Translations under genes and position numbers: made by a program
The notes under the pieces: model-generated
Told to the model about the DNA's origin: nothing
What the model saw: the letters and a program-made list of their open reading frames with translations, nothing else
The model's database searches: none
In this document: positions 1,222-56,901 of the stretch, one piece after another
How the letters are laid out: each line of letters opens with the position of its first letter
Position numbering within the stretch: position 1 is the stretch's first letter
NCBI GenBank assembly: GCA_024398105.1
Contig: JAKSJP010000015.1
Span: forward strand, 1-56,901
Length of the DNA: 56,901 bases
Source: Bacteroidales bacterium
Lineage (GTDB): Bacteria > Bacteroidota > Bacteroidia > Bacteroidales > UBA932
Direction of reading: 5' to 3'

Positions 1222-1629
1222 CTATTTATTACGCTTCTGCGCACGTTTTTCTCTGGCTTTCTGCAATTTTCCAGCTCCAGACTTGAGATATTTAGCCCAC
1301 TGATCCTCAGTGAAGAAGCGCTTGTAGGCCGCATCGATCCTGTCGGCCCACCTGTCACGGGCCGCCTGATAGATGTCGACATTCTCGACCTTTGATGCCT
1401 GGAGAGTCTTCAGCTCTGCCATCAGACCGTCGTAGTCGTGCTGAAGCGTAGAGTCTACATAGAAGGACTGCCAGCCCTCAAGGTCAAGAAGGTCAGTAAG
1501 CCTTTCTGTCTCGGATTCAGCATACTCCGCAGCAGTCTTTTCCTTCTGCTGGGTCTGCGCCAGAGCCACATTCTGTGACATCAGGAGCATAGCTGCCAAA
1601 CCTATAATGGCCAAAAACATCTGCCTCAT
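1222..1629 (-). CDS. Small secreted protein of unknown function
   Basis: A 135-residue protein that I do not recognise. Residues 1-24 form a signal peptide ending VALA before Q25, so it is exported to the periplasm or beyond. There is no lipobox cysteine. The mature part is highly charged and predicted helical, starts acidic (about 30-60) and ends in a very basic tail rich in lysine and arginine. The phrase FFTEDQWAKYLKSGAGK resembles the helical 'TPEQ' segments of Spy/CpxP-like periplasmic proteins, but I would not assign it to that family. It lies 36 bases upstream of pheS and reads the same way, so the two could share a transcript. The ATG at 1629 directly precedes the signal peptide. Confidence 0.8.
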   Translation of the reverse strand: MRQMFLAIIGLAAMLLMSQNVALAQTQQKEKTAAEYAESETERLTDLLDLEGWQSFYVDSTLQHDYDGLMAELKTLQASKVENVDIYQAARDRWADRIDAAYKRFFTEDQWAKYLKSGAGKLQKAREKRAQKRNK

Positions 1630-1644
1630 ACCAAAAATATTTCT

Positions 1645-1652
1645 TAAATTTG
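1645..1652 (+). promoter_or_regulatory. Possible -7 box for the C69 dipeptidase
   Basis: TAAATTTG matches TAnnTTTG and ends 28 bases before the ATG at 1681. No clear -33 TTTG is present at the expected distance. Confidence 0.4.
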
Positions 1653-1665
1653 TAATCCTAACTTA

Positions 1666-1696
1666 CAAAAGTAATAATTTATGCACGGAAAAGCAA
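1666..1696 (-). promoter_or_regulatory. Possible promoter of the small secreted protein
   Basis: On the minus strand TTG (1694-1696) is followed after 20 bases by TACTTTTG (1666-1673), which fits the Bacteroidota consensus apart from the first T of TTTG. It points at the ATG at 1629 with an untranslated leader of about 30 bases. It overlaps the first codons of the divergent dipeptidase gene. Confidence 0.45.
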
Positions 1697-3498
1697 TAAT
1701 CAGCACCGCCCTTATGGCAGCAGCATGCATTTTCTCGTCTATGAAGACCGATGCCTGCACAAATGTCATCGTAACGAAGGGCGCAAGCGCTGACGGATCG
1801 ATACTTGTTTCCTACGCGGCAGACTCCCACTCTCTCTACGGAGAACTCTACTTCCAGGCCGCTACAGACTGGAAGCCAGGCTCTACCAGGAAGATCTACG
1901 ACTGGGACTCAGGACGCTACCTCGGTGAGATCGAGCAGGTTCCTCACACCTACAAGCGCGTCGGTAACATGAACGAGCACCAGCTCATCATCGCCGAGAC
2001 GACCTTCGGCGGACGAGAGGAGCTCTGGGACAAGAGAGGCTCCATCGACTATGGTTCCCTCATCTATATCGCACTCGAGCGTTGCAAGACAGCCAAGGAA
2101 GCGATCCAGCTTATCTCCGACCTTGCCAACGAATACGGCTATTACTCTGAAGGCGAATCCCTTACCATCGCAGACAAGAACGAGGTCTGGATCATGGAGA
2201 TCATCGGCAAGGGTACTCTCATGAAGAACGGCCGCAACCTCAACAAGGGAATCGTCTGGGTAGCCAGAAGAGTCCCTGACGGATACGTGACCTGCCACGC
2301 AAACCAGGCGCGCATCAGCACATTCCCTCTCCATGACCCCGAGAACTGCCTCTACTCAAAGGACGTCATCAGCTTCGCAAGGAGCAAGGGCTATTTCGAG
2401 GGCGAGGACGACGAGTTCAGCTTCTGCGACGCATACGCACCGCTTGACTTCGGTGCGATGAGAGGCTGCGAGGCTCGAGTATGGAGCGCATTCAACATAA
2501 TCAGCAACGGCTGGTTCAGCTTCGAGGACGAGAGCGGACGCATCGTCACCAGAGACGCATACGAGTTCCTTGACTATGCGATGGGCTATGACACCACCAA
2601 GAGGCTCCCTCTCTTCATCCAGCCAGCCAAGAAGCTGACCGTCAAGGATGTAGCCGACGTCATGAGAGACCACTACGAGGGTACCCCTATGGATATGACC
2701 CAGGACATCGGCGCAGGCGGAAACGCACTTCCATACAGATGGAGGCCTATGGGATTCGAGTATGAAGGAAAGAAATACACCAACGAAAGGGCGATCGCCA
2801 CACAGCAGACCGGATTCTGGTTCGTAGGACAGTCACGCGGAGCGTTCCCTGACGTCATCGGAGGAATCATCTGGTTCGGTACCGACGACGCTGCAACCTC
2901 ATACATCACTCCTATCTACACAAGCACCAACAAGGTTCCAAAGTGTTTCCAGGAGGGCAACGGAGACATACTCACATACTCTGAGACCTCTTCGTTCTGG
3001 ATGAACAACCGCATCTCGAACGCTTGCTACAAGATGTACAACCACATGGCTCCATACGTCAGGAAGGAGATCGACGCCTTCGAGAACGAGCAGCTCAGGC
3101 TTGTGCATCTGAACGACAACGCCGCGCTCGACCTCTACCGCGCCGCTGCAGACAAGGAGATCACCAAGGCACAGAAGAAAGGCTATGACTTCGATCCTAA
3201 GGAGGAGACCGGAGATGTATTCGCCTCGGTCAAGAAGCAGCTTACAAAATACTCAGTCAACACCGCACAGAGTCAGTTCGAGAAATGGAGCAACCTTGAG
3301 AAGACCCTCCTAGTGAAGTTCATCGACGGCAACATCAAGCCTCAGGACGAGAACGGCAAGTTCCTCCACAGCGAGGAATCAGTCCATCTACCTGCAAGCA
3401 TCGAGCAGCCAGGCTACACAGAGTACTGGAAAGAGGCCGTAGCCCACTTCCACGGCGACGTCATCGAGGAAGTAGAGTACGAGACAGAAGAAGAATAG
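1681..3498 (+). CDS. Secreted C69 (PepD-like) dipeptidase
   Basis: A 605-residue Ntn-hydrolase of peptidase family C69 (PF03577), which cleaves dipeptides. A signal peptide of about 25 residues ends ...KTDA, and Cys26 in ACTNVIVTKGASADGS becomes the N-terminal nucleophile after processing, as in this family. Further family markers are NMNEHQLIIAETTFGG and the later NWMN-like segment SSFWMNNRISN near 435-445. The protein is longer than cytosolic PepD, as usual for secreted Bacteroidales members, and ends in an acidic tail. It probably acts in the periplasm or at the surface. The next gene is convergent and ends only one base away, with no terminator in between. A second, divergent copy sits at 37407-39047. 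Confidence 0.93.
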   Translation: MHGKAIISTALMAAACIFSSMKTDACTNVIVTKGASADGSILVSYAADSHSLYGELYFQAATDWKPGSTRKIYDWDSGRYLGEIEQVPHTYKRVGNMNEHQLIIAETTFGGREELWDKRGSIDYGSLIYIALERCKTAKEAIQLISDLANEYGYYSEGESLTIADKNEVWIMEIIGKGTLMKNGRNLNKGIVWVARRVPDGYVTCHANQARISTFPLHDPENCLYSKDVISFARSKGYFEGEDDEFSFCDAYAPLDFGAMRGCEARVWSAFNIISNGWFSFEDESGRIVTRDAYEFLDYAMGYDTTKRLPLFIQPAKKLTVKDVADVMRDHYEGTPMDMTQDIGAGGNALPYRWRPMGFEYEGKKYTNERAIATQQTGFWFVGQSRGAFPDVIGGIIWFGTDDAATSYITPIYTSTNKVPKCFQEGNGDILTYSETSSFWMNNRISNACYKMYNHMAPYVRKEIDAFENEQLRLVHLNDNAALDLYRAAADKEITKAQKKGYDFDPKEETGDVFASVKKQLTKYSVNTAQSQFEKWSNLEKTLLVKFIDGNIKPQDENGKFLHSEESVHLPASIEQPGYTEYWKEAVAHFHGDVIEEVEYETEEE

Positions 3499-47905: not shown

Positions 47906-47913
47906 TATCTTTG
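47906..47913 (+). promoter_or_regulatory. Possible -7 box of the surface-lipoprotein operon
   Basis: TATCTTTG is an exact TAnnTTTG match in the 44-base gap after the YfhO gene. It ends six bases before the ATG at 47920, so the transcript would be almost leaderless. The -33 position has no TTTG. Confidence 0.5.
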
Positions 47914-47919
47914 TAGAAT

Positions 47920-49731
47920 ATGCGCTATTTCAAAGGCTTCAATAAATACCTTGCCGCGGCAGTCTCGATGATTGTCGCGTCTGCGTGCGCCCAGTCTTTC
48001 CCCGAGATCGGAAAGGCCGGGAAGAGAACCGTAGGCTTCGGCCTCGGCAGTCCGCAGACCAAGACACAGATAGACGCTGACCATGGTACCTTCGCCTGGG
48101 CGGAAGGCGACCATCTCGCCCTCTGGGCCCGCAGCAGCGACGGCGAGTGGACGCTGAGCAACCAGGACTTCTCGCTCCTGGCGTCAGGACACGGCAACGT
48201 CGGCTACTTCACATCGGAGCTTGACAGCCCGATGCCTCAGGACAGCTATACCTACTATCTCGCATACCCTTTACCTGCGTCGGTAGACGGGACCAGGGCT
48301 ACTTTCACGGTCCCTGCCGTCCAGGACGGCAAGGCGAGTGACGGAATCGACATAATTCTCGGCGGCCCCGTCCAGAGCGGAGCTCTCGAGGCCATCGACG
48401 AGTCCCTGCCTGTCGGCGAGGCAGACATGCTGGACGTCAGGATGCGTCATCTCCTGCATTTCCTCAGATTCTACATCCCGCAGGGCAGCAACGCCCTCGG
48501 AGAGCCTGTGGAGAAGATCGAGTTCACGATGCCTCAGGCCATGGCCGGCAGCGTGACTGTGGACGTCACTGACGGGTCCGCGGAGTTCAGCGCCGGTGGA
48601 ACAGGGTACGACGGCAGGACCGTCACCATGGTCCTGGACGGAAAGATGGGCGAGTCGGTCAATGCCCGCTACGACTATGCCGCAGCCGGAATCTATCCTC
48701 CGGCGACGGCGTACGGCGATGGCGACGTGATGGAGGTGACCCTCTATTCGCAGAGCAAGATAGGACATGTGGATCCTATCCGTCTTGCAGGAAGAAGCTT
48801 CGCTGCCGGACACATCACCAGCGTCCCGCTCAGGCCTACATCTGTAAGCAGTTTCTATTCAGCTACTTTCGCACTTGCAGCAAACAATCTCGGAGAGGAT
48901 GTGCAGAACGTGACCCTTACCCTTCCGGAAGGGACATCATGGCCAGGCACTTCTTCGAATGTCTATACATACTCAGAGTCTGACGGATTCACCGTAGGCG
49001 AGTCCTTCAGGATCACCACCTCGGCCGAGGAGGAGTTCAGGGCTCTGTCCGGAAAGACAGTCTCTGTCAGATACGAGTCTGAGAGCGCTGTCGTATATGA
49101 GACGGTCAGCCTCGGCGACCTTTCTGCGGCAACAAGGGTGGAGAAGGACCTCCATTGCCCATATCTGCTCTTCGAGGACTTCTCGGGAGTAGAGTCATTC
49201 AACTCGGGAGACAAGCACTCGGCGTCCAATGTCGGTGACAAGGATCCTTACCTCTTCCTCGACGGCTGGAGCATCGCAAGAGCCGGCGGCGAGGCTGGAA
49301 AGGCTGTGCGTATGGCGGCCCACAGAGAGTGGTTCGCAACTTACGACTCACGATGCGACTCTCCTATGCTCAGCAACCTCAAGGACGGCAAGACTGTCCA
49401 GATCGAGCTGACCTTCAACTATTCGATGGGCAGAGAGGAAGGCGGACTTGGCGCCAACCCTAAGCTCGGTGCGACAGTCCATGTCGGAAGCACCTCGACA
49501 AGCGGCGGCATCAAGAGCGCAAGCACCACCGGTACCTTTGTGGAGAGCTTCAACGTCAACGAGGAAAGCGGTTCGTACGACAACGTCGACAATGAGCATG
49601 TGACTGTGATATCCGACATGACCAACGCCAGGAGAATCTCGTGGAGAGAGGTAGCTGACGGCAACGCCGGAACAAGCAACGGAACATATTGGCTCTACCT
49701 TGACAACATCAGGGTATCAATCAGGAAATAA
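47920..49731 (+). CDS. Fimbrillin-like lipoprotein with C-terminal jelly-roll-like domain
   Basis: A 603-residue exported lipoprotein; the signal ends VASAC with Cys23. The N-terminal half matches the fimbrillin/Mfa-like family (PF13149) with FAWAEGDHLALWA, the MRHLLHFLRFYI segment and repeated beta strands. The C-terminal 200 residues, from CPYLLFEDFSGVESF to the end TYWLYLDNIRVSIRK, look like a beta-sandwich of the kind that often binds carbohydrates. It is the first gene of a seven-gene run with gaps of -1 to 21 bases. It could be a fimbrial stalk or anchor subunit or a glycan-binding surface protein. I am sure of export and lipidation, less so of the family. Confidence 0.82.
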   Translation: MRYFKGFNKYLAAAVSMIVASACAQSFPEIGKAGKRTVGFGLGSPQTKTQIDADHGTFAWAEGDHLALWARSSDGEWTLSNQDFSLLASGHGNVGYFTSELDSPMPQDSYTYYLAYPLPASVDGTRATFTVPAVQDGKASDGIDIILGGPVQSGALEAIDESLPVGEADMLDVRMRHLLHFLRFYIPQGSNALGEPVEKIEFTMPQAMAGSVTVDVTDGSAEFSAGGTGYDGRTVTMVLDGKMGESVNARYDYAAAGIYPPATAYGDGDVMEVTLYSQSKIGHVDPIRLAGRSFAAGHITSVPLRPTSVSSFYSATFALAANNLGEDVQNVTLTLPEGTSWPGTSSNVYTYSESDGFTVGESFRITTSAEEEFRALSGKTVSVRYESESAVVYETVSLGDLSAATRVEKDLHCPYLLFEDFSGVESFNSGDKHSASNVGDKDPYLFLDGWSIARAGGEAGKAVRMAAHREWFATYDSRCDSPMLSNLKDGKTVQIELTFNYSMGREEGGLGANPKLGATVHVGSTSTSGGIKSASTTGTFVESFNVNEESGSYDNVDNEHVTVISDMTNARRISWREVADGNAGTSNGTYWLYLDNIRVSIRK

Positions 49732-49752
49732 CTTTTAGGTAATAACAGAACA

Positions 49753-50487
49753 ATGAAAAAGACTATCAAGGCTCTTGCACTCGCACTTGCGGCACTGTCG
49801 CTCGTCCTTTCGTGTACGAAGAGCTCAAAGGGAGAGGAAGGATTCGTATCTTTCCAGATCTCCCAGGATGAGGAGGTCGCCCTTGTCACAAAAAGCTCGG
49901 TGGGCAGTTTCACTACGCTGCCTTCACCAGATGACTTCAGGCTGGTAATCGTGAATTCTTCCGACGAGGAGATTCCTGTCAGCGACCCTAAGGGACTCAC
50001 ATCCCTTCCTGCAGGAAACTATACTGTAAAGGCAAGCTTCGGCTCAACATCCGAGGAAGGCTTCGACAAGCCATGTTTCTACGGAGAGCAGACTTTCTCC
50101 ATCAACGGAGGACAGACCTCGGCAGTAACGGTCAAGACCTCTCTCGCCAACGCTATCGTGAGGTTCGAGTACAGCGAGAACTTCAGGAAGTACTACACAG
50201 ACTACAGCTTCACCCTCACAAGCGGAAAGGGAACGCAGATCCAGTTCCCTGCTTCAGAGACCAGGGCCGCATTCGTGGACGCCTACCTCATCAAGGTCAA
50301 GGGCAGCCTCACAAGCCAGGGAGGAAAGACTCAGGAATTCCCTGAGAAGGAATACAAGGGACTCGACGCAGCTACCTGCTACACCCTCAGGTTCGACGCT
50401 TCCAACGTAGGAAGCAGCATAGTTACAATCAGCTTCAACGACACCGTGGAGGACGTAGACCTCGGTGAGACGGAACTTAACGACTAA
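49753..50487 (+). CDS. DUF4493-type lipoprotein
   Basis: A 244-residue lipoprotein with signal sequence ending LVLSC (Cys21). The mature protein has the DUF4493 (PF14900) layout: an N-terminal strand with FVSFQIS, a LPAGNYTVKASFG segment, CFYGEQTFSINGGQTSAVTVKTSLANAIVRFEYS (only its first residues are diagnostic), and a C-terminal strand bundle. DUF4493 is a Bacteroidota surface family of unknown role, distantly reminiscent of fimbrial subunits. It lies 21 bases after the fimbrillin-like gene. Confidence 0.8.
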   Translation: MKKTIKALALALAALSLVLSCTKSSKGEEGFVSFQISQDEEVALVTKSSVGSFTTLPSPDDFRLVIVNSSDEEIPVSDPKGLTSLPAGNYTVKASFGSTSEEGFDKPCFYGEQTFSINGGQTSAVTVKTSLANAIVRFEYSENFRKYYTDYSFTLTSGKGTQIQFPASETRAAFVDAYLIKVKGSLTSQGGKTQEFPEKEYKGLDAATCYTLRFDASNVGSSIVTISFNDTVEDVDLGETELND

Positions 50488-50499
50488 AGAGGAATGGAT

Positions 50500-51744
50500 A
50501 TGAAAAAGATATTTGCATTCATAGCATGTGCCGCATTGGTACTGACATCCTGCAAGGACGACAGATTCGAATACGGCAAGGACAAGGACAACACCGGTAT
50601 TCTCTCACTCGCAAGCCTCACTCTCAACGTCTCTGAGGAGGTCGTGACAGTGACCAAGGCAGACCCTGCAGACGACAGCTATACACTTTCCCTCTATGAC
50701 GCGTCAAACGCGCTCGTATGGGAGAAGAGCTATGGCGAGGTCAAGGCTTCGGCAGACGGAATCTCACTTCCTGCCGGTGAATATGTACTCAACGTACGCT
50801 CGACCGCCGCGGGAGTCCCTGAGGCGAAGTTCTCGGCACCTGTCTATGGTACCTCGGAGAAGTTCACCATCGCGGTCGGACAGACTACCTCGGTCGGAAC
50901 ACTTACCTGCACGCTCCTCCAGTGCGCAGTCACAGTAGGCTACAACGACGAGTTCCTCACAATGGTAACCGGCGACGGCAGCACCTCTGTCGAGGTGACT
51001 TCAGGCAACCCTCTCGAGTACAGGCTAAGCTACAACGGCGGAGCTCCTACCTACGAGCGCAGGATAGGTTACTTCGCTGTCAACAACGGTGACAACACTA
51101 CCATGACCGTGACCTTCAAAGGCCTCATCGAGGGCAAGAACCAGAAGATGACGACATCGATCTCAGGCATCAAGGCCCGCGACTGGCATATCATCACCTT
51201 CATGAAGAAGGTCGATGCAAGCGGCAACGCATCGTTCGCAGTCGAGATCGACGGCCTCGTTGCAGACGCAGTCCTTGACAACGACGTCACAGCGGACGAG
51301 GAAGGCGACGGCAATGATCCGAACGCCCCTACCGGCGATGGCGGAATCCAGCTCGTCAGCACATGTGCATTCAACATCGACCAGCCTGTAGTCGTTCCTG
51401 CGACCGGCAGCTTCGACTTCACCATGAAGGCTCTCATCCCTAACGGAGCACGCAAGTTCACTGTAGACATCGCTTCTACAAACGAGGACTTCATCGGATC
51501 TGTCAACACGGTCGGCGGTACCACACTCGACCTGATCAACCCTTCAGAGGCTGCTCTCGGAGTATTCGGCATCGTTCCGTTCCCTCATGGAGCAGACCTT
51601 CTCAACAAGACAGAGATCGACTTCAACCTCGCAGAGGCACAGACACCGCTCCTCGCATTCAAGGGAAGCCATACATTCACCATGAACGTAACTGACAACA
51701 AGGGCTGCCGCAAGAGCATCGCGCTTACACTTGTAGTCGAATAA
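50500..51744 (+). CDS. DUF4493-like surface lipoprotein
   Basis: A 414-residue lipoprotein. I use the ATG at 50500, not the one at 50494: the former is preceded by GAGG at a proper distance and begins directly with the signal peptide MKKIFAFIAC, ending LTSC with Cys18. CKDD directly after lipidation is an acid-rich start of the kind that serves as a surface-export signal in this phylum. LSLASLTLNVSEE and LPAGEYVLNVRS resemble the neighbouring DUF4493 proteins. The C-terminal third adds an Ig-like sandwich. Gaps are 12 bases before and 13 after. Confidence 0.8.
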   Translation: MKKIFAFIACAALVLTSCKDDRFEYGKDKDNTGILSLASLTLNVSEEVVTVTKADPADDSYTLSLYDASNALVWEKSYGEVKASADGISLPAGEYVLNVRSTAAGVPEAKFSAPVYGTSEKFTIAVGQTTSVGTLTCTLLQCAVTVGYNDEFLTMVTGDGSTSVEVTSGNPLEYRLSYNGGAPTYERRIGYFAVNNGDNTTMTVTFKGLIEGKNQKMTTSISGIKARDWHIITFMKKVDASGNASFAVEIDGLVADAVLDNDVTADEEGDGNDPNAPTGDGGIQLVSTCAFNIDQPVVVPATGSFDFTMKALIPNGARKFTVDIASTNEDFIGSVNTVGGTTLDLINPSEAALGVFGIVPFPHGADLLNKTEIDFNLAEAQTPLLAFKGSHTFTMNVTDNKGCRKSIALTLVVE

Positions 51745-51750
51745 GGAGGA
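51743..51750 (+). promoter_or_regulatory. Strong Shine-Dalgarno sequence before the DUF4493-PCMD gene
   Basis: AAGGAGGA lies seven bases before the ATG at 51758 and overlaps the preceding stop codon. Such a perfect ribosome-binding site is rare in this window and in the phylum, so it marks this gene as special in the operon. Confidence 0.6.
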
Positions 51751-51757
51751 GAGAGAT

Positions 51758-53587
51758 ATGAAGACAAGAATACTCAGCATAGCCGTCCTGATGGCCGGCA
51801 TCGTCCTTGGCACCTCATGTACCAAGGATGCAAGGCAGACAGGCAACGGAGCCCTCTCCCTCAGGATCGAGGCGGACGGAGCGACAAAGGCGGCAATGAG
51901 CCAGGACGAACTGCTTGCAGCTGCCAATGTCAAGATCTACAAGGCTGACTTCTCGGGAAAGGTACGTGAGTACACCTACTCCCAGATGCCTGCATCGATC
52001 TACCTCCCTGCAGACAGCTACCGCGTCGACGTGGCGGCCGGCGAGATCGCAAAGGCTGCTCCGGCTCCGGCTTCATGGGAGCAGAAGAGCTACAAGGGCT
52101 CTGCAGATGTCACCATCGTGGCTTCACAGAACTCGAACGTGACCGTAGCGGCCAGGATCTGCAACACAGTCACAAGATTCAGCTTCGACGCATCGATAGC
52201 CGAGATGTTCAACCCAGGCTACAGCTGCACCGTAGGTCTCAGCGAGACCGACGCTGCCCAGCAGCTCGTCTACACAGCAGACAAGAGCGGAACCGACGGA
52301 TACTTCATCGCAGACGGCTTCGAGCCTTCACTCTACTGGAGCTTCAGCGGCACCCTCGCAAAGGACGGCAGCAGCTTCACCAAGAGCGGAGAGATCCCAG
52401 CGGTGGAGAGCGGCAAGCGCTACGCCATGTCACTCAGGTACTCTGAGAAGGACGGTCTCCTCGCTGTCGAGGTAGAGGTTGACGACAGCACCAACGACAT
52501 CTACGACGACATCATATTCATCCCTGTCGCAACAGGCATCGCAAGCACAGCAAAGTACGAGATCTGGGCAGGCCATTTCACAGCCCATGCGGATGTGGAC
52601 GAGAAGGAATATGACTCATCAAAGGTATATTTCGAGTGGGCACCTGCTGATTCTGACTCATGGACAAGAGTCAGCGCGACCCGCGACGCAGAGGGCGCGT
52701 ACAGCGGCCTGATCAACGGTCTTACAGGCTCTACCGAGTACAAGTACAGACTTGTCGTCACATCACTTGCAGACGGTTCGGAGGAGATCATCGAGGCCAG
52801 CTCTACTATAACCACAGACGCAGCTCTGCAGGCTCCTAACTCAAGCTTCGAGACGACCTCTAACACCGAATCCAAAAACTACTCATCATTCTTCGACCCT
52901 GCGTCGCTCTACCCTGAGCTCCAGAAGATGTGGTGGGACAGCGGTAACAAGGGTTCGACTGCCGTAGGTGCCTCCGGTGTCATCTGCTACCCTGTGACCG
53001 ACGACGTCATGCACGGAACGACGGCCGTATGTCTCCAGTCACGCTATGTGGTCATCAAGTTCGCTGCGGGCAACCTTTTCAGCGGACATTTCGGATCGCT
53101 CGTGGGAACAAGCGGCGGTACAGTCTTCTTCGGACGTCCTTTCACAGCCCGTCCTACAGCGATGAGGCTCTGGATGAAATACTCAAGCGGAAAGATCAAC
53201 CGAATCACCAACAATGCACCAGCAGAGGTGAAGGAGGGTGACTACGACAAGGCATCACTGAGGATCGCCATCGGCACATGGGACTATAAGAAGTACGGCG
53301 GCGACGCGGACAGCCCAGTCCTCGTCAACACCACCGACACAAAGACCTTCGTCGACTATAACACCGATGAATCGACCATCGCAGTCGGAGAGCTCTTCGT
53401 AGAGGCAGACGCAAGCAACTCTACGGACGAATGGAGGCAGGTTACCATTCCTCTGACATACAAGGACCTGAACAAATATCCTACACATATCATCATCAGC
53501 TTCGCAGCCAGCATGTACGGTGACTACTTCACCGGCTATGACAACAGCCGCCTCTGGCTCGACGGTATTGAACTCCTCTACGAATAA
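51758..53587 (+). CDS. DUF4493-PCMD fusion lipoprotein
   Basis: A 609-residue lipoprotein with signal sequence ending LGTSC (Cys21). The N-terminal part (about 25-250) is DUF4493-like, with LSLRIEADGATKA and IYLPADSYRVDVAAG. A fibronectin-like segment follows (about 265-365), and from APNSSFETTS (about 368) to the end is a PCMD domain (PF13201, putative carbohydrate metabolism domain) with the markers SFFDPASLYPEL, WWDSGNKGST, RYVVIKFAAGNLFSG, GRPFTARPTAMRLWMKY and DNSRLWLDGIELLYE. The PCMD part is clearly homologous to that of 55138-56769. It shares one base with the next gene. Confidence 0.85.
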   Translation: MKTRILSIAVLMAGIVLGTSCTKDARQTGNGALSLRIEADGATKAAMSQDELLAAANVKIYKADFSGKVREYTYSQMPASIYLPADSYRVDVAAGEIAKAAPAPASWEQKSYKGSADVTIVASQNSNVTVAARICNTVTRFSFDASIAEMFNPGYSCTVGLSETDAAQQLVYTADKSGTDGYFIADGFEPSLYWSFSGTLAKDGSSFTKSGEIPAVESGKRYAMSLRYSEKDGLLAVEVEVDDSTNDIYDDIIFIPVATGIASTAKYEIWAGHFTAHADVDEKEYDSSKVYFEWAPADSDSWTRVSATRDAEGAYSGLINGLTGSTEYKYRLVVTSLADGSEEIIEASSTITTDAALQAPNSSFETTSNTESKNYSSFFDPASLYPELQKMWWDSGNKGSTAVGASGVICYPVTDDVMHGTTAVCLQSRYVVIKFAAGNLFSGHFGSLVGTSGGTVFFGRPFTARPTAMRLWMKYSSGKINRITNNAPAEVKEGDYDKASLRIAIGTWDYKKYGGDADSPVLVNTTDTKTFVDYNTDESTIAVGELFVEADASNSTDEWRQVTIPLTYKDLNKYPTHIIISFAASMYGDYFTGYDNSRLWLDGIELLYE

Positions 53588-54333
53588 TGAAAAGAATCAG
53601 GACATTCATAGCTGCCATCATGGCTCTGATGCTCTGGACGCCCGGCGCCCAGGCTCAGCGCTTTGACCGTGGCTACGACATGTCGCAGCCGGTGTCCTTC
53701 GTCGAGAAGGGAACATGGATGGTCGGCGGCACCGCCAACTATTCGCTGCACAACATGGACAACTATTCGTTCCTGGTCATAGACAAGATCAACTCCATCG
53801 GATACGGCCTCTCGGTCAGCCCTGCGTTCTGCTACATGGTAAAGGACAATATGGGATTCGGCCTGAGAGTCGACTATGACAGGAACATGTTCAAGCTGGA
53901 CAACGCATCGATTGATGTAGCTGATGTCGGCCTGGAAATAAAAGACTACCACGCTATCGGCCACAAGTTCAAGGGCGCAGCCATCATGAGGAACTACCTT
54001 CCTCTGGGCAACTCGCGCAGATTTGCCATGGTCAACGAGACCCAGCTCTCGGTCGGCATAGGACAGGGCAAGGTCGTCGACGGACATAACCAGGACAATG
54101 TCGCCGGCTCATATGAGACGAGCACCAGCTTCGGCATCAATCTCTGCCCGGGCATGATGGCGTTCGCCAGCGACCACTTTGCAGTCGAGTTCAGCGTCAA
54201 CATGCTTGGTTTCAACATCTCGAACACCCGACAGATCCACAACCAGGTCGCTGAGGGCAGCCGCACTTCGACTTCGGTCAACTTCAGGGTCAACGTCCTT
54301 TCTGTAGGTTTCGGAATCTATTATTATCTGTAG
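53587..54333 (+). CDS. Small outer-membrane beta-barrel protein 1
   Basis: A 248-residue exported protein; signal peptide about 1-23 (ends AQA-Q24), no lipobox. The mature part alternates polar and aromatic residues in about eight to ten strands separated by short turns (GTWMVGGTANYSL, YGLSVSPAFCYMV, NMGFGLRVDYD), and ends VGFGIYYYL, with an aromatic C-terminal strand as expected for insertion by the BAM machine. It starts within the stop codon of the DUF4493-PCMD gene. Related in layout to the next gene. Confidence 0.8.
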   Translation: MKRIRTFIAAIMALMLWTPGAQAQRFDRGYDMSQPVSFVEKGTWMVGGTANYSLHNMDNYSFLVIDKINSIGYGLSVSPAFCYMVKDNMGFGLRVDYDRNMFKLDNASIDVADVGLEIKDYHAIGHKFKGAAIMRNYLPLGNSRRFAMVNETQLSVGIGQGKVVDGHNQDNVAGSYETSTSFGINLCPGMMAFASDHFAVEFSVNMLGFNISNTRQIHNQVAEGSRTSTSVNFRVNVLSVGFGIYYYL

Positions 54334-54336
54334 CGT

Positions 54337-55134
54337 ATGAAGAAAGTACTTTGCATAATCCTCGCCGCCGCGGCTCTGATGGCCGCGTCAGTGGACTCGT
54401 ACGCCCAGAAGCAGAAGAAGGAACCTGTGAAGATGGGTACCATGATCCGTCAGAAAGACAGTACCAAGCACGAAGGTCGTCAGCTTGACTACAGGCTCTT
54501 CATTCCTAAGAGCGCGAAGAGCGTGGGAATGCAGTTCTCGTACTTCGACCTGACAAGCACCGACAGCGAACTGATGATGCTGGTCCAGAATCTCAATGCC
54601 TATGGCAACTGGTTCAGCGTAGCTCCATATATTTCTTACTGTCTGAAGGACAACCAGACCGTCGGTATGAAGATACGCTACTCGAGCGGACAGGCTGGCG
54701 TCAACGATGCTGACCTGAGCCTTCTCAGCGACGATCTCTCTCTCAGCGTAAGCGACGTCAGGGCAAGCACGCACTCTTTCACCAGCGAGGTTTTCTACAG
54801 GTCATACATCGGTCTGGACAGGCTGGGACGTTTCGGCCTCTTCAGCGAGCTCGCGCTTCAGTACTCGACTTCGAAGACTGCATTTGCCATGGACGAGAGC
54901 AATCTCGACGCATACACCCTTGCCAACAAGGTCAAGGTTGCAGTGCGCCCGGGTCTGGAGGTCTTCATGATGAACAATCTCAGTACGCAGGTCTGCATCG
55001 GCATCGGCGGTATATCATATGCGAACACGAAGTATATCAAGGACGGCGCGACGGTCGGCACCAACAATGTCTCACGCGCCCGCTTCATGCTCGACCTGAC
55101 TGACATTTCAATGGGCATGGCCCTTCATTTCTAG
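54337..55134 (+). CDS. Small outer-membrane beta-barrel protein 2
   Basis: A 265-residue exported protein; signal peptide about 1-23 (ends SYA-Q24). The mature part starts with a charged linker (about 25-50) and continues with barrel-like strands (VGMQFSYFDLTSTD, WFSVAPYISYCLKDNQTVGMK with only part diagnostic), ending MGMALHF. The SVAPYISYCLKDN segment parallels SVSPAFCYMVKDN of barrel 1, so the two are paralogues. Gaps are three bases on both sides. Confidence 0.8.
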   Translation: MKKVLCIILAAAALMAASVDSYAQKQKKEPVKMGTMIRQKDSTKHEGRQLDYRLFIPKSAKSVGMQFSYFDLTSTDSELMMLVQNLNAYGNWFSVAPYISYCLKDNQTVGMKIRYSSGQAGVNDADLSLLSDDLSLSVSDVRASTHSFTSEVFYRSYIGLDRLGRFGLFSELALQYSTSKTAFAMDESNLDAYTLANKVKVAVRPGLEVFMMNNLSTQVCIGIGGISYANTKYIKDGATVGTNNVSRARFMLDLTDISMGMALHF

Positions 55135-55137
55135 GCT

Positions 55138-56769
55138 ATGGGAAAGATTGAACGAATAATCTCCGGAATCATGGTACCTCTGGTCACCGTCCTTGCCGCA
55201 CTGGCAACGGCCGGCTGCATCAAGAACGACATACCATACCCTAAGATTGCTGCGGGAATCACCGCCATGGACGTGGAAGGCGCTCTTTCCGTCAACATCA
55301 ATTCCGACGCAAGGACAGTCGACATAGTTCTCGAGGAACAGACAGACATGCGAAGCGTCAACATCCGCAGCGTGGAGTTCAACGAAAGGACGGTGGAGCC
55401 TTCGTGGGACATCACCGGAAAGAGGGATCTCTCAAGTCCTCTGAAGCTGACCCTCAAGACTTTCGACGAATATATCTGGGAAGTACGTGCAAGCCAGACC
55501 ATCGAGAGGTATTTCACCGTATCGGGACAGGTCGGCGAAACCTGGATCGACGATGTCAACCACAGGGCCATCACCCAGGTCTCATCGTCCCTCGACAGGG
55601 AAAGGCTCGATGTCACGAGCCTGAAGCTCGGTCCTGAGGGCATCACGACCTATTCACCGGACCCGTCAAGTCTCCACGACTTCACCAACGGGCAGGAGAT
55701 CGCCGTGAAGTACCATGACCTTACACAGGTCTGGCATCTCTACGTCGAGCAGACGGAGACCGTCGTGCAGTTCACGGGCGTCGACGCATGGACCAAGGTC
55801 GTATGGCTCAAGGCTTCGGGCATCGCAGGCAGGGAAAACGGCTTCAGATACAGGAAAAGAGGCACTCTCGCGTGGACGGAGGCTCCGGAGGTAACGGAGC
55901 ACGGCGGTTCGTTCAGAGCGGCCGTAAACGGCCTGGATCCGCTTACAGACTATGAGTGCATCGCATACAGCGGTGCCGACGAGACCGATATCCGCGAGTT
56001 CCGCACCGAGGCTGAGGTCCAGGTTCCGAACAGCGGTTTCGAGACTTTCTCTAACTGGGAGTCTGACAAGTTCTGTTCATTCTTCGACCCTGCATCTCCA
56101 GACCCTGCACTCCAGACCAAGTGGTGGGGCAGCGGAAACAAGGGATCGACTACCGTCGGTTCAAGCTACGCCATCACAGTCCCTGAGTCAGGAGACAGCC
56201 ACGAGGGTAAGTACTCCGTCAAGCTCGCATCGGCCTATGTAGTCATCAAGTTCGCGGCAGGAAACATCTTCTCCGGCGAATACTATAAGACAGTCGGTAC
56301 CTCAGGCGGTATCATCCACCTCGGCCGTCCGTTCACCCAGAGGCCTCAGAAGGTGACTGTCTGGCTGAAGTATAAGAGCGGCATCATTCCTGAGAAGTGC
56401 TTCAACGGCAAGCCTGACGGCGATCCGACCAAGGTCGGTGACCATGACAGGGGTACCGTATGGGTTGCCCTCGGCGACTGGGACTACCACAAGTACGGCG
56501 GAGACGAGCAGAGCCCTCTCGAGGTCAATACTCTCGAGAAGTCGTCTTTCTTCGACCCTAAGGGTCCGAACGTGATTGCCTACGGTAACTTTGTGAGCGC
56601 CGAGGACATCGATGAGTGGACCAAGGTCGAGATTCCTCTGGAATATACTTCGACCTCGCGCAGGCCGACCCATATCGTCATCTCTGCCGCAGCCAGCATG
56701 CTCGGTGACTACTTCACCGGCAGCCCTGACTCCGTCATGTGGCTCGACGACGTCCGCCTGGAGTACTAG
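55138..56769 (+). CDS. PCMD-domain lipoprotein
   Basis: A 543-residue lipoprotein with signal sequence ending ATAGC (Cys27). The N-terminal part (about 30-220) is unlike DUF4493 and contains Ig-like strands (MDVEGALSVNINSD). A fibronectin-like segment (about 220-300) is followed by a PCMD domain from VPNSGFETFSN to the end, with SFFDPASPDPAL, WWGSGNKGSTTVG, AYVVIKFAAGNIFSG, GRPFTQRP and DSVMWLDDVRLEY. It is the last gene of the operon in view and stands directly after the two barrels. Together with the fusion protein it brackets them. Confidence 0.85.
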   Translation: MGKIERIISGIMVPLVTVLAALATAGCIKNDIPYPKIAAGITAMDVEGALSVNINSDARTVDIVLEEQTDMRSVNIRSVEFNERTVEPSWDITGKRDLSSPLKLTLKTFDEYIWEVRASQTIERYFTVSGQVGETWIDDVNHRAITQVSSSLDRERLDVTSLKLGPEGITTYSPDPSSLHDFTNGQEIAVKYHDLTQVWHLYVEQTETVVQFTGVDAWTKVVWLKASGIAGRENGFRYRKRGTLAWTEAPEVTEHGGSFRAAVNGLDPLTDYECIAYSGADETDIREFRTEAEVQVPNSGFETFSNWESDKFCSFFDPASPDPALQTKWWGSGNKGSTTVGSSYAITVPESGDSHEGKYSVKLASAYVVIKFAAGNIFSGEYYKTVGTSGGIIHLGRPFTQRPQKVTVWLKYKSGIIPEKCFNGKPDGDPTKVGDHDRGTVWVALGDWDYHKYGGDEQSPLEVNTLEKSSFFDPKGPNVIAYGNFVSAEDIDEWTKVEIPLEYTSTSRRPTHIVISAAASMLGDYFTGSPDSVMWLDDVRLEY

Positions 56770-56827
56770 CCGGAGAGGCCGCAAGGGCCAGCAGGGCCTG
56801 AGAGGAAGGACAGGACGGCAGGGCAGA

Positions 56828-56901
56828 CCCTGGGGAGCAGGACAGGCCCTGGGGAGCAGGACAGGCAGGCCCTGGGGAGCAGGACAGGCAGGACAGCAGG
56901 G
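56828..56901. repeat. GC-rich tandem repeat running off the right edge
   Basis: CCCTGGGGAGCAGGACAGG occurs at 56828-56846, 56847-56865 and 56870-56888, the last preceded by an extra CAGG. Related CAGG/GGACAGG pieces continue to the edge. Unit length is therefore 19 or 23. G-runs lie on the plus strand. No open frame of substance crosses it, and the total length cannot be known from this window. Confidence 0.8.

Follow-up and report, generated by a model that had tools for sequence, protein, structure and literature searches.

A conserved seven-gene operon of Bacteroidales encodes pilin-like and jelly-roll lipoproteins together with predicted outer-membrane barrels

We describe here an operon of seven genes, g1 to g7, in a window of 56,901 nucleotides (nt), the whole stretch of DNA that was analysed, from Bacteroidales bacterium (UBA932; assembly GCA_024398105.1, contig JAKSJP010000015.1), an organism of gut type. 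The seven open reading frames lie on the same strand at positions 47920-56769 (+) with a maximum intergenic gap of 21 nt, as a first-pass annotation made from the DNA letters had listed them, the gaps from g1 to g7 being 21, 6, 13, -1, 3 and 3 nt. The genes form one conserved unit that encodes five lipoproteins and two predicted outer-membrane barrels, and the reading that we favour, at about even probability, is that their products, of pilin type and matured by a protease, would assemble on the cell surface into a glycan-binding structure based on the barrel(s) and g7. The genes and the sites within or next to them are as follows.

g1, 47920-49731, + strand: lipoprotein of 603 amino acids with a predicted fimbrillin-type (type V pilin) fold and a C-terminal MAM/CBM-like jelly roll, in a tip-pilin-like layout
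g1 C-terminal jelly roll, 49156-49728, + strand: residues 413-603
g1 Lys48, 48061-48063, + strand: basic residue resembling a maturation site, Lys or Arg in 28 of 28 sequences
g2, 49753-50487, + strand: DUF4493 lipoprotein of 244 amino acids (PF14900, 3e-40), basic site Lys47
g3, 50494-51744, + strand: lipoprotein of 416 amino acids, DUF4493 (PF14900, 6e-32) and a C-terminal part, basic site Lys55
g4, 51758-53587, + strand: lipoprotein of 609 amino acids with the domains DUF4493, FN3 and PCMD, basic site Lys44
g5, 53587-54333, + strand: predicted outer-membrane beta-barrel of 248 amino acids
g6, 54337-55134, + strand: second barrel-like protein of 265 amino acids, a paralogue of g5, missing from many variant operons
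g7, 55138-56769, + strand: lipoprotein of 543 amino acids with two similar N-terminal domains, an FN3-like part and PCMD (PF13201, 4e-38)
Promoter-like box TATCTTTG, 47906-47913, + strand: match to TAnnTTTG just upstream of g1

A scan with g4 returned 35 other loci, all of them from metagenome-assembled genomes according to the record titles, which name one Candidatus Cryptobacteroides and, in many cases, Bacteroidales; 17 of the 35 titles mention horse, goat, water buffalo or yak. The recurrence of the gene order across Bacteroidales, which the first-pass annotation had proposed as a check, was observed: all seven genes stand in identical order in 27 of the 35 loci (g1 or g7 being cut in 4 of the 27), and in the remaining 8, which break off where the contig does, the genes present keep that order. 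In four pairs of loci, both members lie on one contig or in one genome (L019/L034, L035/L038, L025/L040 and L017/L041); the first of them, on contig DCHT01000052.1, consists of two divergent operon copies, 2650 nt apart, that flank GyrB-type and acyltransferase-type genes. No flanking gene family is common to more than 9 of the 35 loci, and the commonest flank, a GyrB-type topoisomerase gene (family assigned by Pfam in L054), adjoins 9. Because the order recurs in other genomes amid several different surroundings, a chance neighbourhood of the genes can be ruled out. Regional synteny is only partly excluded as the cause of the conservation: among the further loci considered below, the GyrB-type gene adjoins 8 of the first 15, which come from the family, and 0 of the last 19, which come from the order sample, and this pattern, together with the 9 of 35 given above, indicates that an old chromosomal site accounts for part of the conservation and not for the whole. 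That the seven genes constitute one conserved operon unit is well supported.

Of 29 loci, 22 have the motif TAnnTTTG, which we take to be the -7 box consensus of Bacteroidota, between -120 and +60 relative to g1; in random stretches its frequency is 4.9%. Sorted by gene start, it was found at g1 in 19 of the 25 full loci and at g2 to g7 in 0, 0, 1, 0, 0 and 4, respectively, and terminator-like sites were found after g7 in 8 of the 25 and inside the operon in 0-1 of the 25. As the box stands mainly at g1 and the terminator-like sites mainly after g7, the signals fit a single transcript that would start at g1. Upstream of the operon in the window lie a YfhO gene and glycosyltransferase genes; co-transcription with these was rejected, as neither has a match in the regions flanking the 35 loci, and the box is located at g1. 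A phase-variable promoter was likewise not adopted, the region near g1 containing only a weak inverted repeat of 10 nt (90%) with 104 nt between the arms, though this region may nevertheless invert.

The assignment of the products to five lipoproteins and two barrel-like proteins agrees with the aligned families. A lipobox is present in 26 of 28 g1, 31 of 32 g2, 28 of 31 g3, 28 of 29 g4 and 28 of 29 g7 sequences and is rare in the barrel-like proteins (g5, 2 of 31; g6, 4 of 32), the script having picked an earlier Cys within the signal peptide in a few rows. For g1 to g4 this accords with type V pilus subunits, which are made as signal peptidase II lipoproteins. The earlier family labels held for the window copies in the case of DUF4493, with PF14900 scores of 138.8 (g2), 111.8 (g3) and 125.4 bits (g4, E 4e-36) against a family cut-off of 27, and of PCMD, with PF13201 scores of 124.7 (g4, E 6e-36) and 131.9 bits (g7) against a cut-off of 28; NCBIfam added nothing beyond Pfam above its cut-offs for the window proteins. 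The fimbrillin label comes from g1 relatives, PF13149 (Mfa_like_1) being matched at E 1 or better by 14 of the 28 aligned g1 proteins (best 1e-10) and not by the window copy, and from the predicted fold of g1. Neither this label nor that of the barrels comes from the window copies, since g1 and g5 have no Pfam match at E 1 and g6 has only a sub-threshold match to a methyltransferase.

Structure models of g1 and g4 as single proteins, a step that had been recommended at the outset, returned pilin-type folds and jelly rolls, the fold of g4 with moderate support. The model of g1 comprises a type V pilin (fimbrillin) fold, as is expected of a type V pilus subunit, and the jelly roll, so that g1 looks like a pilin-type subunit with a tip-like layout. 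Tip pilins of type V pili frequently carry a C-terminal ligand domain, according to PMC12632263. A relationship of the g1 jelly roll to PCMD was rejected, as its hhalign probability to the PCMD domains of g4 and g7 never exceeded 20%. A PDB sequence search with the profiles of g1, g3 and g5 gave nothing useful, g3 being without a match at E 1.

The g4 model shows a pilin-like DUF4493 domain, an FN3 domain and a BT2081-like jelly roll. Besides the BT2081-like PCMD domain, the Foldseek hits include 3gf8, 4gpv, 3r4r, 4h40 and 3pay at E 5e-6 to 1e-4 and a probability of 1.00, and 3r4r and 4h40 align to the N-terminal part of g1 too. A pilin-type fold in g4 is put forward with moderate confidence, as a result of modelling.

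The PCMD domains of g4 and g7 are closely related (hhalign 100%, 52% identity over 243 columns). For BT2081, PMC2954218 proposes a carbohydrate pocket of Phe202, Phe206, Tyr261 and Phe340, names Asp351 as the calcium residue and presents Asp259/Asp338 as a possible catalytic pair that is called a candidate only. When these residues were mapped onto 58 g4 and g7 sequences by one profile alignment, the equivalent of Phe202 was Phe in 58 of 58, that of Phe206 aromatic in 58 of 58 and that of Phe340 Phe in 53 of 58, and Asp338 and Asp351 were both matched by Asp in 58 of 58. The equivalent of Asp259 is never Asp (0 of 58; Glu in 6), so that the proposed glycoside hydrolase pair is incomplete, and that of Tyr261 is not retained, both columns depending on the single alignment. 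Retention of the Phe pocket together with loss of the Asp259 equivalent points to a domain that may bind carbohydrate more than it would perform the proposed hydrolysis, and the loss of Tyr261 argues for an altered pocket as well. In the open-licence PubMed Central papers searched, DUF4493, PF14900, PF13201 and 'putative carbohydrate metabolism domain' were not named; a search by gene name did return the BT2081 structure paper.

One basic column (Lys or Arg) recurs in the four proteins before the barrels, with 28 of 28 sequences in g1, 31 of 32 in g2, 30 of 31 in g3 and 28 of 29 in g4. Lys and Arg interchange in it and a small residue follows, which in g1 is Thr, Ser or Ala in 28 of 28. In the models of g1, whose first strand spans residues 36-43, and of g4 the column sits behind the first strand; the aligned sequences of mature g7 contain no comparable basic column. 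Type V pilins are described in PMC12632263 as surface lipoproteins that a surface clostripain cuts near the N-terminus, so that a groove becomes free to receive the following subunit; PMC11316588 describes processing by gingipain. In loci fetched later, 61 of 87 g1-g4-type proteins have the motif [ST][KR][ASTG] at +15 to +46 from the Cys, whereas the 32 residues that follow contain it in only 10 of the 87 and g7 has it in 4 of 28 cases; a recognised lipobox was required, which left out 7 g1-g4-type and 4 g7 proteins. The genome of the window also carries a gene of the C11/clostripain family. Cleavage at the basic site of g1 to g4 is a prediction.

The small outer-membrane barrels are predicted from the relatives of g5 and g6. 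OMP_b-brl was matched by 9 of 31 g5 proteins (best 3e-6) and by 2 of 32 g6 proteins, and two NCBIfam barrel families by 2 of 31 and 1 of 31 g5 members, the window copies matching none of them. Comparison by hhalign shows g5 and g6 to be homologous (99.9%, E 2e-33), and each has an alternating-strand signal of about 12 strands by a crude count that was not used. In g7 the motif N-D-x-P-Y is invariant and lies close after the lipidated Cys. According to hhalign, the two N-terminal domains of g7, which are probably Ig-like, resemble each other and its FN3 part resembles that of g4; FN3-type families were matched in part of the 29 g7 members.

To assess how widely the operon occurs, genomes were searched under strict E-value limits, and the counts are thus lower bounds. 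Matches to g7 (E 1e-60) were found in at least 65 of the 299 genomes of the family to which the window belongs, or 50 of 144 of good quality, a few being partial, and matches to the g5 barrel (E 1e-20) in at least 71 of the 299. Both occur in 62 family genomes, and in every one of these the barrel precedes g7 on its 5' side, sharing contig and strand with it, at a distance of 5-896 nt (Fisher p = 3e-50, ignoring kinship). Only three of the 65 g7-bearing genomes (G102, G275 and G288) are without an adjoining barrel, and of the nine barrels in genomes without a g7 match, six adjoin a PCMD match. At the level of the order, 26 of 294 genomes matched g7 (E 1e-15), representing 13 families including that of the window; in a phylum sample of 345 genomes searched at E 1e-20, g7 was found in the genome of the window only.

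We inspected 34 further loci picked for g4 or g7 matches, L053 being on the same contig as L013. Barrel(s) stand between g4 and g7, with DUF4493 lipoproteins before them, in 26 of the 34, from 12 families. Variant operons have a single barrel, or DUF4493 lipoproteins of 580-870 amino acids replacing g1 and g2. The barrel(s) and g7 occur alone in L051, L055, L056, L058 and L065, and other reduced loci comprise DUF4493, barrels and g7 (L073), DUF4493, g3 and g4 (L066) or g7 alone (L050). In L049, g7 is split over two frames. From the composition of these variant loci, barrel plus g7 emerges as the most constant core. In a tree of 63 g7 proteins built by a quick method, without L013, L014, L053 and short g7 pieces, a single supported clade unites the window with 31 other seven-gene-type loci, of which some are cut. 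Extra DUF4493-type reading frames were also seen in L033, where a run of them occupies positions 1369-3035 upstream of a complete seven-gene operon.

In the assembly that we propose, g1 to g4 would be exported as lipoproteins with N-terminal domains of the pilin superfamily. After their flip to the cell surface, a protease of the clostripain/gingipain type would cut them at the conserved basic residue (Lys/Arg) that follows the first strand, and the cut would expose a groove through which subunits join by strand exchange, in the style of type V pili. The MAM/CBM-like jelly roll of g1 and the BT2081-like jelly roll of g4 would serve as glycan-binding heads. Protein g7, which has no cut site, would remain lipid-anchored and, in contact with the barrel(s) g5/g6, would form the outer-membrane base, its PCMD domain contributing a further binding site. 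Of the anchored multi-subunit structure on a barrel base that the first-pass annotation had envisaged, the unity of the operon and the coupling of barrel and g7 are borne out; its assembly and its ligand we too infer. A more specific version, which we regard as tentative and rather doubtful, is a distinct Bacteroidales appendage, a multi-headed glycan adhesin derived from type V pilins and docked by g7 on a dedicated barrel instead of an anchor of the FimB/Mfa2 type, the barrel perhaps guiding subunits to the surface.

Several observations weigh against such a pilin-type assembly. None of the subunits stands out as a repeated stalk, and the fim and mfa loci are not known to carry a barrel. The Foldseek output does not give the span of g4 that the pilin structures match, unrelated FN3 proteins reach E-values for g4 similar to those of the pilins, and VIA, in a list that covers residues 252-609 only, gives no pilin structure for g4. 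The basic column is not the only one conserved in g2 and g4; the plain motif [KR][ASTG] discriminates much less, being found in 77 of 87 proteins while the control stretch has it in 50 of these 87 and g7 in 17 of 28, and the three-letter motif occurs in only 2 of the 4 later g1 proteins. Maturation-like motifs are common across fimbrillin-like proteins, so that the motif may mark the superfamily instead of cutting. The reduced loci, finally, indicate that the barrel/g7 part can stand without adjoining pilin-like genes.

This last observation bears on the possibility that the operon is no more than two modules in company, one of pilin-like DUF4493 type (g1-g4) and one, distinct from it, of barrel(s) and g7. 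This possibility accords with the occurrence of barrel(s) and g7 without g1-g4 in L051, L055, L056 and L058, with genome G426, in which g5-g6-g7 (L065) and DUF4493-g3-g4 (L066) lie on different contigs, and with the absence of the basic column from g7. However, g4 and g7 have FN3-like and PCMD domains in common, 26 of the 34 loci mentioned above, though picked for g4/g7 matches, have the barrel(s) between these two genes, and the separated halves of G426 are still within one genome; we regard the two-module explanation as improbable.

We consider it unlikely that the operon encodes a coat of the cell surface anchored by the barrels, whether an S-layer-like or a shielding one, in which they would hold or export lipoproteins covering the cell and binding would be secondary. 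Such a coat has a precedent in Bacteroides thetaiotaomicron, where the putatively 8-stranded barrel Bt1926 has been proposed to anchor the S-layer lipoprotein Bt1927, which the same locus encodes, or to be its partner in secretion (PMC12578637). The operons described here also pair small barrels with surface-type lipoproteins, and in variant ones the first genes encode DUF4493 lipoproteins that reach 870 amino acids. Yet five different lipoproteins, three of which (g1, g4 and g7) have binding-type jelly rolls, stand against one large coat protein, and no invertible promoter was recognised near g1, with the reservation on the inverted repeat made above. Quite unlikely, too, is a glycan-capture or glycan-processing complex that would feed the uptake of nutrients and in which the PCMD domains would act as glycosidases or bind sugar: according to Pfam and NCBIfam, none of the seven proteins belongs to SusC, SusD or an enzyme family, and the Asp259 equivalent is lost in the one profile alignment, though that of Asp338 is kept throughout.

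Compared with known systems, the proposed pilin-type assembly resembles the type V pili (FimA/Mfa1) of Bacteroidia in its lipoprotein subunits with a pilin fold (g1 by model, g4 with moderate support), in the basic residue behind the first strand and in a tip-like subunit (g1) with a C-terminal jelly roll; it differs in having DUF4493 subunits and no clear stalk, and in that one or two barrel-like proteins and a PCMD lipoprotein are constant in the operon. With the Bt1926-Bt1927 pair it shares a small barrel gene and a surface-type lipoprotein gene in one locus, a likeness of layout, whereas its five lipoproteins with pilin and jelly-roll domains and the lack of a recognised promoter inversion set it apart. 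The C-terminal domain of g4 and g7 belongs with the BT2081 family (PF13201; PDB 3hbz, 4het, 4jrl and 3s30), keeping the equivalents of Phe202, Phe206 and the calcium Asp351, but here it is fused to DUF4493/FN3 or other N-terminal domains, has lost the Asp259 and Tyr261 equivalents and is encoded in an operon with barrels and without SusC. Unlike the MAM, cleaved-adhesin (gingipain K1-K3) and CBM4/CBM61 jelly rolls, that of g1 follows a pilin-type domain, and unlike a polysaccharide utilisation locus, the operon has no SusC/SusD pair among its seven proteins.

Further features were noted in the genome of the window. On contig C10, at about 26.7-49.4 kb (L081, L083 and L084), reading frames of 376-1005 amino acids match Mfa_like_1, several of them multiply, which indicates that this genome (G000) also carries a large fimbrillin-like locus separate from the operon. 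A lone gene for a DUF4493-type lipoprotein of 364 amino acids lies remote from the operon on contig C23 (L087, 7141-8235), next to genes that were judged by eye only to be helicase- and RNF-like. Directly after g7, near the end of the window, a G-rich tandem repeat of 23 nt occupies positions 56818-56892; its core 19-mer has one further copy in the genome, with one mismatch, on contig C31.

Each domain of the operon is of a known family or fold, and the combination with its barrel core does not appear in the open-licence PubMed Central papers searched under the family names; among the literature matches listed, none joins type V pili and barrels in its title or the start of its abstract. Complexes of surface lipoproteins and barrels are a hallmark of Bacteroidota, as stated in PMC12578637. 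If the operon does encode an adhesin on a barrel base, it would link type V pili to these complexes and would offer a compact case for the assembly of surface lipoproteins.

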